Assembly (NCBI RefSeq): GCF_012641075.1
Contig: NZ_JAAXLJ010000002.1
Span: 62,001 to 126,000, forward strand
Origin: Secundilactobacillus angelensis
Lineage (GTDB): Bacteria; Bacillota; Bacilli; Lactobacillales; Lactobacillaceae
Direction: 5' to 3'
DNA: 64,000 bases
Shown here: positions 23,073 through 27,900 of the stretch, in pieces
How positions within the stretch are numbered: the first letter of the stretch is position 1
Layout of the letters: the number at the start of each line of letters is the position of its first letter
Translations under genes and position numbers: made by a program
Notes under the pieces: generated by a model
Databases searched by the model: none
What the model saw: the letters and a program-made list of their open reading frames with translations, nothing else
Told to the model about the DNA's origin: nothing

Positions 23073-24266
23073 TTAGTCTTCAGTACCGTCATCCTCAGAA
23101 GTTTCTGGGGCATCTTGGGCTTCTGAATCTGCGGCTGAATCAGCATCTTCAATAGGTGCATCAACTGGTTCACTGGATTCTTCCGCTTGCGGTTCTTCAC
23201 TATCATCGCTGTCAGTCGTGTTAAAAATCGTCTCAGCCTCAGTTTCAGACTTAATATCGATCTTATAACCCGTTAACTTAGCAGCTAACCGTGCGTTTTG
23301 ACCACGCTTACCGATTGCCAGTGATAACTGATAATCTGGCACAATAACGGTACATGCCCGCTCATTGTTTTCATCAAAAACGACGTCGATCACTTCAGCT
23401 GGGTTCAAAGCGTTCGCAATAAACTTAGCTTCGTCATCCGTCCATTCAACAATGTCCATGTTCTCGCCATCAAGTTCTGACACAATGGACTGAACCCGTT
23501 GTCCACGGGGGCCAACTGAGGTCCCAACTGGATCAACATCTGGATTATTTGAACGAACAGCCACTTTAGCTCGGTCACCCGCTTCACGAGCAATCGACAT
23601 GATTTCAACGGTGCCATCGTAGATTTCCGGAATTTCTTCTTCAAATAACCGTTTAAGCAGGCCTGAATCAGTTCGACTGACGAACACTTGGGGTCCCTTA
23701 GCGGCATTCTCAACTCTGGTCACATACACTTTAATCCGGTCGTGCATCCGGTATGTTTCGTTAGGCATCTGATCCTGACGACTCATTACGGCTTCAACGT
23801 TACCTAGATTAACGTAAACAAACCGGTTATCCTGACGTTCAACTTCACCAGTAATAATTTCGTTTTCATACTGGCTATATTGATCAAAGATCAGTGACCG
23901 TTCTGCTTCACGAACCCGTTGCATAATGACCTGTTTAGCTGTTTGGGCAGCAATTCGGCCGAAGTTTTTGGGGGTGACTTCAAACTTGATGTCATCGCCT
24001 AGTTCATAACCGCGACTAACTTGCAGTGCGTCATCCAGACTAACTTCCAAACGGGAGTCATAGACTTGGTCGACAATCTTTTTAACCGCGAAAACGTGCA
24101 CGTCACCCTTTTTTTCGTCGAAATTAACTTCAACGTTTTGTGCTTGACCATAGTTCCGCTTGTATGCAGAAGTCAATGCGGCTTCAAGCGCATCGATCAC
24201 GATTTCCTTTTTGATACCCTTTTCTTTTTCCAGTGTATCAAGAGCACCTAATAGTTCTTTACTCAT
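23073..24266 (-). CDS. nusA: Transcription termination/antitermination factor NusA
   Basis: A 397-residue NusA. The N-terminal RNA-polymerase-binding domain, an S1 domain (near ITGEVERQDNRFVYVNLG), and two KH domains (VGPRGQRVQSIV and LAIGKRGQNARLAAKLTG) are present. It ends with an about 45-residue acidic tail rich in Glu, Asp, Ser and Ala and lacks the C-terminal repeats of proteobacterial NusA. It modulates pausing and intrinsic termination. AAGGAG lies before the ATG. It is second in the operon whose leader contains a terminator-like hairpin, so autoregulation through NusA is plausible. Confidence 0.97.
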   Translation of the reverse strand: MSKELLGALDTLEKEKGIKKEIVIDALEAALTSAYKRNYGQAQNVEVNFDEKKGDVHVFAVKKIVDQVYDSRLEVSLDDALQVSRGYELGDDIKFEVTPKNFGRIAAQTAKQVIMQRVREAERSLIFDQYSQYENEIITGEVERQDNRFVYVNLGNVEAVMSRQDQMPNETYRMHDRIKVYVTRVENAAKGPQVFVSRTDSGLLKRLFEEEIPEIYDGTVEIMSIAREAGDRAKVAVRSNNPDVDPVGTSVGPRGQRVQSIVSELDGENMDIVEWTDDEAKFIANALNPAEVIDVVFDENNERACTVIVPDYQLSLAIGKRGQNARLAAKLTGYKIDIKSETEAETIFNTTDSDDSEEPQAEESSEPVDAPIEDADSAADSEAQDAPETSEDDGTED

Positions 24267-24288
24267 TACGTATAGTCTCCTTTAGCTG

Positions 24289-24762
24289 TTAAAACTTAAT
24301 TGCTAATCTTGCTTTGGCAACGTTTGTTCTTGGTATGACCAAATCTTTCATGCGACCCTTTAGGTTGATTTTCAAACCTAACTCATCGTCATTAACCGAG
24401 GTCAACGTGCCTTCGAATGCTTTTTCACCGTTCATTTTCTGATAAAGAGAAACGTGAATGTAATGGTCGACCGCCCGTTCATAGTCAGCTTCTTTTTTCA
24501 ACGGCCGTTCAGCACCCGGTGAGGACACTTCCAAGAAATATGCTTGGGGAATTGGATCGGGATCGATATTATCCAGTTTTTCGCTTAACTCATCGCTCAC
24601 TAATGCGCATTCATCAATCGTAATGCCACCAGGTTTGTCGATGTAAAGCCGTAAATACCAACTTTTACCCTCGCGAACAAACTCAACGTCCACCAGTTCA
24701 AAATGATGAGCATCCACAATCGGTTTCGCTAGAGCCGAAACAATGTCTACGACGTTATCCAA
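24289..24762 (-). CDS. rimP: Ribosome maturation factor RimP
   Basis: A 157-residue RimP, needed for 30S assembly. Features are [20 protein letters not shown] and [20 protein letters not shown]. The start is a TTG at 24760-24762 with GGAGG 7 bases before it; a frame extending to 24816 contains the hairpin and the ribosome binding site, so it is not used. It is the first gene of the nusA-infB operon and lies about 75 bases after the predicted promoter. Confidence 0.93.
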
Positions 24763-24796
24763 TCTTTTACCTCCAATACCATTTTTCCAATAAAAA

Positions 24797-24818
24797 GAGC
24801 GAGCATCGCTGCTCACTC
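24797..24818 (-). terminator. Terminator-like hairpin in the leader of rimP-nusA-infB
   Basis: GAGTGAGCA pairs with TGCTCGCTC around a GCGA tetraloop, followed on the minus strand by five T. It lies after the polC stop but also about 18 bases downstream of the predicted rimP transcription start. It can therefore work both as the polC terminator and as an attenuator of the nusA operon. Confidence 0.75.
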
Positions 24819-24842
24819 CTTTCCGAAATATCTACAAAATGT

Positions 24843-24871
24843 ATGATAGCACAAAGTCAATACAATAGCAA
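24843..24871 (-). promoter_or_regulatory. Promoter of the rimP-nusA-infB operon
   Basis: TTGCTA at 24866-24871 (minus strand), exactly 17 bases, TATCAT at 24843-24848, preceded by TG as an extended -10. It lies between polC and the leader hairpin. Confidence 0.7.
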
Positions 24872-24911
24872 ACTTGAAAGCCCGTTGCAGTGCTGGCTCA
24901 GCATCATTTTA

Positions 24912-27900
24912 CTACATCATATCAAATAGGCTCAGTTGATTTTCGTCCGGTAAACCATCAAGAACACCATTATCAGTCATAAATTCAATCAACGTTTTAG
25001 AAACTTTACCACGTTTAGCCAGATCTTCCTTCGATAGAAACGGCTTGTCTTCACGGGCAGCAACGATTTGTTTGGCCACGTTCAAACCTAGCCCGGGGGC
25101 GGCATCAAATGGTGCAATTAAGGTGTCACCATCAATCAACCATTCACTGGCGGCCGATTTATCGATATCAATCATCTTAAACTTAAAGCCGCGCTCCAGC
25201 ATCTCATTAGCTAATTCTAGGACAGTTAATAAATTCTTGTCCTTCGCTGAGGCATCCATACCTTCATCGTTAATTTCCTTCATTTTGGCTTTCACGGAGT
25301 CCTTGCCACGAGACATCGCAACAACATCGAAATCGTCAGCCCGAACTGAGAAGTAAGCTGAGTAGTACACCAGTGGAAAGTAGACTTTGAAGTAGGCAAC
25401 CCGCAAGGCCATCAAATCATAGGCAGCCGCATGGGCACGGGGGAACATGTACTTGATTTTTAGACAAGAATCAATGTACCAGTCCGGCACCTCAGCTTCC
25501 TTCATCTTCGCTTGCCATTCATCTGGAATCCCACGGCCTTTACGAACGTGTTCCATAATCTGAAAGGCAATTTCAGAATCCATTCCCCAGTTGATTAAGT
25601 CGGTCATGATGTTATCACGACAACCGATAACGTTAGAAATGGTTGCAGTGCCGTTTTTAATTAACTCTTCAGCATTGCCCAACCACACGTCAGTCCCGTG
25701 TGATAATCCGGAAATTTGCAGCAGTTCTGAGTAGTTTTTAGGGTGGGTTTCTTCCAGCATGCCGCGAACAAACCGCGTTCCGAATTCTGGCACACCCAGT
25801 GTCCCAGTCTTGGATTGAATTTGTTCCGGCGTAACATGCAAAGACTCAGTTCCGGAGAACAGCGCCATGACACCGGGATCATCCATCGGAATGGTCTTGG
25901 GATCGATACCACTCAAATCTTGCAGCATCCGAATCATAGTGGGATCATCATGTCCCAGGATATCGATTTTTAAAATGTTGTCATGAATTGAATGGAAATC
26001 AAAGTGGGTGGTCTGCCAGGCGGCATTTTGATCATCTGCTGGGTATTGAATCGGTGTGAAATCATATATATCCATATAATCTGGCACAACGATGATTCCG
26101 GCAGGATGTTGTCCGGTAGTCCGCTTGACGCCAGTGGCACCCTTCGCTAGCCGATCGATCTCAGCGTTTCGGAAATGTTCTTCCTTATCACGTTCATAGG
26201 CTTTTACGTACCCATAAGCCGTCTTGTCAGCGACGGTCCCAATCGTTCCAGCTCGGTAAACATTCTTTTCGCCGAACAGCACTTTGGTATAGTTATGGGC
26301 AATTGGTTGATAGTCCCCGGAGAAGTTTAAATCGATATCGGGAACCTTATTCCCAGTAAAGCCTAAGAAGGTTTCAAACGGAATGTTGTGGCCATCGCCA
26401 ATCATTAACGTCCCGCACTTTGGACAATTCTGTTCCGGTAAATCAAATCCTGAACTGTATTCACCCTTTGTGTAAAACTTTGAATACTGACAATTTGGGC
26501 AACGGTAGTGTGGTGGTAACGGATTAACTTCTGTGATTCCCGTCATAGTCGCCACTAAACTGGAACCGACAGAACCACGGGAACCAACCAAATAACCATC
26601 TTTATTACTTTTTGCCACCAATCGTTGGGCAATCAGATAAATCACGGAGAACCCATTACCGATAATACTCTTCAATTCGCGGTCTAATCGGTGCTGAACC
26701 AGCTCTGGTAACGGATCACCATACCATTCGTGAGCCGTATTCATGGTTCGTTCGCGAATTTCGTCCTCTGCGCCTTCCATCCGTGGCGTGTAAAGTTTAT
26801 CTTTCAACGGGTGCACATCATCAATTTGATCGGCAATGGCATTACTGTTGGTCACCACGATTTCCTTAGCTTTGTCTTCTCCAAGAAAATTGTAATCAGC
26901 CAACAGCTCATCGGTCGTCCGGAAATGCACGTCCGGTAGTTCTTGACGGTTCAGTGGATTTGCGCCACCTTGCGAGTTAATTAAAATCTTTCGGTAAATG
27001 GCATCTTCGGGATTTAAGTAGTGAGTATCACCGGTGACCACCACCGGCTTGTCGAGTTCTTCACCCAGCTTCACCATATTTGTCAGGATCTCTTCGAGGT
27101 TTTTACGGTTTTGAATCAACCCAGAATCAATCAGTGGCTTATAAGCTGCCAATGGCTGAACTTCAAGGTAGTCATAGAACTTGGCCTTACTGCGAGCCTC
27201 AACATACCCCTTTTGCATCATGGCGGTAAAGACTTCACCAGAATCACAGGCCGAGCCAATCATCAAACCCTCTCGCAGTGCCTCAATTCGGCTTCTTGGC
27301 ATTCGTGGAACCCGGTAAAAGTAATCCACGTTTGACTCCGACACTAACTTGAACAGATTCTTCAAACCCGTTTGTGTTTGAGCCAGAATAATCGCGTGAG
27401 ATGGCCGAGCATGTTTATAGGCATCGTTTTCGCTCATATGATCATTTAACTGATCATGAAACTGGATATCATAACGATCTTCGGCATCCTTTAAGAAGAG
27501 GTAGTTCAAATGTCCCGTGGATTCAGCATCGTAAATTGCCCGGTGATGATGTTCCAGAGAAACGTGAAACTTCTTAGCCAGTGTATTCAGCCGATACCCT
27601 TTTAGGTTTGGATACAAGAATCGTGCCAGGGTTAAAGTGTCGATGATGGGATTGGTGATTTCGGGTAAATCATGCCGCTGATAACCAGCATTCATGAACC
27701 CAATATCAAACGTGACGTTGTGCCCAACAATGATGGCGTCTCCATAAAATTTTCTGAATAATTCAAAAACTTCTTTTTCAGACTTTGACCCATGAACCAT
27801 TTCGTCGGTAATACTGGTCAAATTAGTGGTTTGGTCGGACAAATGAAACCCAGGGTCAATAAATTCTTCAAACTGATCAATGACTTCTTTACCCTGCATC

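Follow-up and report, generated by a model that had tools for sequence, protein, structure and literature searches.

The window analysed here, a stretch of 64,000 nt from Secundilactobacillus angelensis, carries the operon rimP-nusA-ylxR-ylxQ-infB on its minus strand. The rimP gene (24762-24289) matches Pfam RimP_N (3.8e-28) and the RimP C-terminal domain (6e-18), and it is followed by nusA (24266-23073), which has NusA_N, S1 and KH domains, the second KH model being under its cut-off, and which matches solved NusA chains. Next come ylxR (23058-22756; Pfam YlxR, 4.4e-26), a gene for a YlxQ-like L7Ae-family protein (22799-22455; Pfam Ribosomal_L7Ae, 4.8e-9; start uncertain), presumably ylxQ, and infB (22450-19934; Pfam IF-2, IF2_N and GTP_EFTU). 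Upstream of the rimP leader, also on the minus strand, the list of open reading frames (ORFs) contains 29240-24912, presumably polC, the name used in the initial annotation. The most likely start of rimP is the TTG at 24762, behind a ribosome-binding site GGAGG (24774-24770, minus strand) that was read from the sequence and lies outside the leader hairpin, while the GTG at 24816, the rimP start according to the ORF list, falls within this hairpin.

Between putative polC and rimP, all elements of the promoter described in the initial annotation are present on the minus strand. The -35 element TTGCTA (24871-24866), identified by reading the sequence and by a consensus scan, is separated by a 17-nt spacer from an extended -10 element TGC-TATCAT (24851-24843), in which TATCAT occupies 24848-24843 and TG lies one base ahead; the whole promoter spans 24871-24843. 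The predicted 5' end of the transcript, TGTAGATATTTCGGAAAG (24836-24819, minus strand), would begin at about 24836, 7 nt past the -10 element, and this start, placed by promoter spacing, lies 17-18 nt from the stem of a terminator hairpin (24818-24797, minus strand). The hairpin has a 9-bp stem with arms GAGTGAGCA (24818-24810) and TGCTCGCTC (24805-24797) and a GNRA tetraloop, GCGA (24809-24806). Directly 3' of the second arm is TTTTTATTG, in which the U-tract UUUUU (24796-24792) is followed by A, UU and G. The 9-bp stem, GCGA loop and five U residues that had been claimed about 18 bases past the predicted start are therefore all found, again on the minus strand. The 74-nt leader RNA has a predicted fold of -21.4 kcal/mol (z -3.45), which none of 200 shuffles equalled, and the stem is strong, with a centroid of -18.7 kcal/mol. 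The U-tract and the rimP start are only about 30 nt apart, which is too short for a separate promoter 3' of the hairpin, and thus any transcript that reaches rimP from the leader promoter or from polC has to run through the hairpin. An ATG composed of the last loop base and the UG of the stem, with AAAGGAG upstream, opens a 19-codon ORF (24806-24747, minus strand) that overlaps the rimP start.

A scan of 14 kb found promoter-like sites (24 versus 24.5 expected) and terminator-like sites (15 versus 13.1 expected) in numbers no higher than chance, and a consensus match by itself is therefore weak evidence; we judged the leader element to be real because it is conserved. A match to the leader stretch was found in 20 of 40 relatives, or 21 of 41 genomes when its own is counted, and between genera it is chiefly the hairpin part that aligns. 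Scanned over 84,980 species genomes, the pattern GYGAGCANNNNTGCTCRCTCTTTTTAWTG, which leaves the loop open, gave at least 118 stretches, in which the U-tract is built in since TTTTTAWTG formed part of the pattern. Among the matches listed, all 80 titles are lactobacilli or close kin, and rimP lies downstream in 117 of the 118 family stretches listed, the remaining one (L065) ending 96 nt past the match start. Although the loop was free in the pattern, it is GNRA in 114 of the 118 stretches listed, the others being GCCA (3) and GAAG (1). The GAGTGAGCA form is present in Lactiplantibacillus, in species other than L. plantarum. The pattern GYGAGCANNNNTGCTCRCTCTTT was found in 102 of 151 family genomes (own included) and in 26 of 38 genera, a count of pattern places anywhere in these genomes; two family genomes had two hits, which were one palindromic place each. 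When 16 of the 49 family genomes without the pattern were inspected at rimP, all 16 had a hairpin followed by a T-rich stretch, the stem, loop or tail being changed (a permissive scan, without a shuffled control). The genome of the window itself has a single copy of the hairpin, even when 3 mismatches are allowed. At one family locus (L264), a tRNA-like sequence lies directly upstream of the rimP hairpin, at the place expected for polC. This order recalls that of the E. coli operon, in which metY comes first.

The hairpin was also found outside the family. We sampled 110 rimP loci from 151 genomes of the class Bacilli, 30 of them best-scoring and 80 chosen for genus spread, and a terminator-like hairpin (-12 kcal/mol or lower, followed by T residues, within 300 nt upstream of rimP) was present at 110 of 110 loci, compared to 2 of 220 shuffles. 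The regular expression RGAGYG...CRCTC matches 98 of the loci, and in the other 12 the stems are altered yet paired; the AGAGTG-type hairpin is the best-scoring one in 97 of the 98, while L179 has another that scores better. The form AGAGTGGG..CCCRCTCT, absent from the genome of the window, occurs in 127 of the 151 class genomes in counts that fit one place in most of them, and the reversed control pattern gave 5 matches. Among the places listed, those in G098, G146 and G052 sit just upstream of rimP, as compared by eye with RimP matches. One further such place each was seen in G113, G114, G159 and G170. The loop inside GG..CC is GNRA in 40 of the 98 class hairpins, and the tails have TTT in 84 of 98 and five T in a row in 1. 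Putative polC was not found within 0.28-0.9 kb upstream of 29 of the 110 loci (in some it may lie farther away), and the hairpin is present at all 110, which shows that it goes with rimP. As judged from these sequences, most lactobacilli examined have the leader hairpin, and the other Bacilli sampled have an altered form of it.

The best -35 element begins with TTG in 89 of the 118 family stretches listed, compared to a mean of 9.4 in like-treated shuffles, and TG precedes the chosen -10 element in 94 of these 118 (18.5 in shuffles given the same TG bonus) and in 93 of 98 class loci. The distance from the -10 element to the stem is 25.4 ± 3.3 nt in Lactobacillaceae (118 stretches listed; SD 6.4 in shuffles over the same range) and 33.9 ± 4.4 nt in the class (98 loci, the base before GAG counted as stem; SD 10.4 in shuffles), figures to be read with the -10 search confined to an interval that itself bounds the spread, with related sequences that are non-independent and with some -10 calls that are probably wrong. 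From the stem to the gene, the class loci have a distance of 78.2 ± 49.9 nt, and from the pattern end to rimP it ranges from 12 to 223 nt across the family stretches listed. The comparison of promoter-hairpin spacing in related genomes, which had been suggested as a check, thus gave a spacing that is narrow in family and class and tighter than in shuffles. This tight spacing, as measured on predicted elements, is possibly a new feature of the rimP leader.

A rimP-leader attenuator, a conserved terminator hairpin before rimP-nusA-infB, was described by Naville and Gautheret in 2010 (PMC2965389), with a conserved stem sequence and with NusA proposed as the regulator, RimP also being allowed. The window resembles it in having a terminator hairpin upstream of the same genes with a conserved stem sequence, but the published stem signature, GGGc...gCCC, is missing here, and GAGTGAGCA and TGCTCGCTC form a stem capped by a GNRA loop instead. 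No antiterminator was seen in the general form (PMC2965389), whereas a weak alternative 5' hairpin is suggested in Lactobacillaceae. The Rfam family RF01770 (rimP) takes its name from the rimP leader, and the window leader is below its cut-off. Searches of Rfam gave no match in window positions 24000-26000 at E values up to 1 and none in 13 rimP-leader loci, and, under stricter filters, the RF01770 cut-off was reached in none of 61 class genomes and not in the genome of the window. As a control, RF01770 matched E. coli among 14 control genomes. Since the GGG/CCC signature fails and the RF01770 score stays below the cut-off, we did not file the leader as a member of RF01770. This family appears to miss the form of the leader found in Bacilli; a single sub-threshold match, in G068, is on another contig than the rimP gene of that genome.

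In B. subtilis, NusA stimulates termination in the 5' leader of its own gene and thereby controls it, as stated in a review (PMC12288461), and the initial annotation was correct that NusA-dependent attenuation of its own operon is reported there. The window has the same kind of signal and the same proposed logic, here read from sequence only, and the layout is that of a NusA-autoregulated operon: the promoter precedes the hairpin, the gene follows it, and no room is left for a promoter between them. The primary paper on autoregulation by B. subtilis NusA is Mondal 2016. A word search of the main text of a B. subtilis Term-seq paper (PMC8060035) for ylxS, rimP and autoregulation gave no hit. 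The rimP operon of S. agalactiae gives rise to a short RNA and a long transcript from a common start, and negative feedback by NusA was suggested (PMC4448216). Termination there occurs 31 nt from the start (PMC4448216), compared to 45 nt predicted here, and four class loci from one family, presumably streptococci, have stems of the AGAGGCG- or GGGGGCG-type rather than GAGTGAGCA. The kind of control is thus already known, and its form in lactobacilli, as far as sequence can tell, differs from the published one.

We consider it quite probable that a promoter-proximal terminator attenuates rimP-nusA-ylxR-ylxQ-infB and that NusA thereby limits its own production. An intrinsic terminator would lie within the first ~45 nt of the operon transcript, and a polymerase leaving the promoter would meet the hairpin almost at once; some polymerases would stop and release a short RNA, and others would read through into the operon. 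NusA would increase the share that stops, so that less NusA would be made when it is plentiful and more when it is scarce. From the sequence, its conservation, the order of the elements, their narrow spacing and the linkage to rimP rather than polC, all of which are direct observations, we infer termination at the hairpin and NusA as the sensor. The earlier proposals that an intrinsic terminator lies in the leader of the NusA operon and that feedback by NusA is plausible both gain support, as position, conservation and the literature fit an attenuator in NusA's own leader. NusA-dependent terminators have a weak hairpin or an interrupted U-tract, and the short or broken U-tracts of the class (five T in a row in 1 of 98) fit this description. 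The terminator of the window has a tract of U5, A, UU and G but a strong stem; as NusA-dependent terminators are weak, the strong stem and the five U residues count against NusA-dependent attenuation, as do the silence of the Term-seq paper and the shorter distance to termination in S. agalactiae.

The sensor could also be another product of the operon, with RimP, YlxR or the L7Ae-like YlxQ binding the conserved stem or the GNRA loop. The stem sequence, and in the family the GNRA cap, are conserved beyond what pairing and termination need, which makes recognition by such a factor conceivable; the operon encodes proteins of RNA-binding families, and the 2010 paper also allows RimP (PMC2965389). 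We nevertheless regard this as unlikely, because the B. subtilis statement points to NusA (PMC12288461). Also unlikely is the idea that the hairpin serves as nothing more than the 3' terminator of polC, with rimP transcribed by leakage. Putative polC ends at 24912, and from there to the promoter the scan lists no further terminator-like site on the minus strand; however, a conserved promoter-like site stands between polC and the hairpin, and the hairpin persists at all 110 class loci, including the 29 without putative polC 0.28-0.9 kb upstream. The earlier suggestion that the hairpin could also end polC transcripts may hold as an additional function, but for the same reason this is not its main role.

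A role of the hairpin mainly in shielding the mRNA 5' end from degradation, rather than in control of termination, would agree with its position less than 20 nt from the predicted 5' end. It would leave the U-tract of the window and the T-rich tails of the class (TTT in 84 of 98) needless, as RNA stability does not call for them, and we consider such a role very improbable. Hardly credible is a leader peptide, in which translation of a short ORF, begun at the AUG of loop and stem, would open the hairpin. An ATG is present at that place in 117 of the 118 stretches listed, and in the window AAAGGAG precedes it; yet among 116 ORFs that could be followed, 90 stop after 7 to 42 codons, scattered, and the other 26 stay open for at least 80 codons and presumably run in frame into rimP, while a Shine-Dalgarno-like motif lies ahead of the ATG in 52 of 117. 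With its ORF length scattered and not conserved, the leader peptide was rejected. In the reading that we prefer, attenuation sensed by NusA, lactobacilli too would have a core transcription factor that limits its own synthesis, through an altered form of the known control, and 110 of 110 Bacilli regions sampled have a counterpart. As one layout is shared by different sequences, these natural variants can be compared for the feature that NusA reads, candidates being the spacing, the stem sequence, the loop and the transcript 5' end.

At the 5' end itself, GTAGATATTTCGGAA occurs in 12 of 15 same-genus sequences, own included. GGNWATACT lies between the -10 element and the hairpin in 41 of 98 class loci from 18 families (labels matched by hand), and in distinct segments it was found in 40 of 95 versus 0.3 in shuffles (maximum 2); ATACT lies 11-12 nt past the -10 element in 42 of 98 loci, and ATACT-N3..6-ATA is present in 30 of 95 distinct segments versus 0.5 in shuffles (maximum 2). 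At these 41 of the 98 class loci (among L021-L050 and L169-L248), the rimP transcript appears to begin with GGNWAUACU, often with AUA a few bases on. In Lactobacillaceae, ACTYG was found in 42 of 106 distinct segments versus 6.8 in shuffles (maximum 12), and TGTAGATATTTCGG of the window matches both GGNWATACT and ACTYG poorly. No larger conserved element is mentioned in the 2010 paper (PMC2965389), and a literature search on the rimP leader, with most subscription papers outside its scope, gave no report of a conserved 5' end. The conserved 5' end predicted for the transcript in many Bacilli is possibly new. This end may resemble boxC of the mycobacterial NusA site; a literature search on this likeness found nothing relevant, and boxC-like ACT-N0..4-AATAG occurs in 4 of 95 leaders versus 0.7 in shuffles (maximum 3), numbers too small to support a conclusion.

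Pairing between a segment such as ACTCG and the bases at and just before the 5' arm of the terminator is possible in many Lactobacillaceae leaders, and in L254 and L256 an arm GAAGT goes together with a segment ACTTC. The window leader shows a weak pairing of this kind between its 5' end and the 5' arm of the hairpin (p 0.10). When leaders were compared to shuffles, 26% of 109 Lactobacillaceae leaders had p ≤ 0.05 (mean -2.0 versus -0.97), as did 9% of 105 when a longer arm was used (-2.37 versus -1.68) and 25% of 16 exceptions (-3.43 versus -1.56). A class-wide alternative 5' hairpin was not supported, with 3% of 93 distinct leaders at p ≤ 0.05 and a gain of -1.08 kcal/mol versus -0.98 in shuffles. 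In a swap test over 47 lineages, defined as RimP clusters at 75% identity, leaders favoured their own partners (-2.45 versus -1.90 kcal/mol; permutation p median 0.0027, maximum 0.0095 over 20 draws). The arm in this test takes in 4 nt beyond the core stem, the exceptions had their arms assigned manually and L253 was excluded, so that the test does not prove pairing of the core stem itself. These mixed results suggest a weak covarying 5' hairpin in Lactobacillaceae, a lead that may be new. A tentative and rather doubtful extension is that promoter, 5' end and terminator form a compact timing device, which would gauge whether NusA joins the polymerase within ~40 nt. GGNWAUACU...AUA would then be a landing site for the KH domains of NusA, and in Lactobacillaceae a transient 5' hairpin, covarying with the terminator base, might delay folding so that mainly NusA-bound polymerase stops. 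Among divergent family members, L260-L263 have a UUUACA...UGUAAA hairpin just before the terminator and overlapping its base, and L265 has UUUAC..GUAAA.
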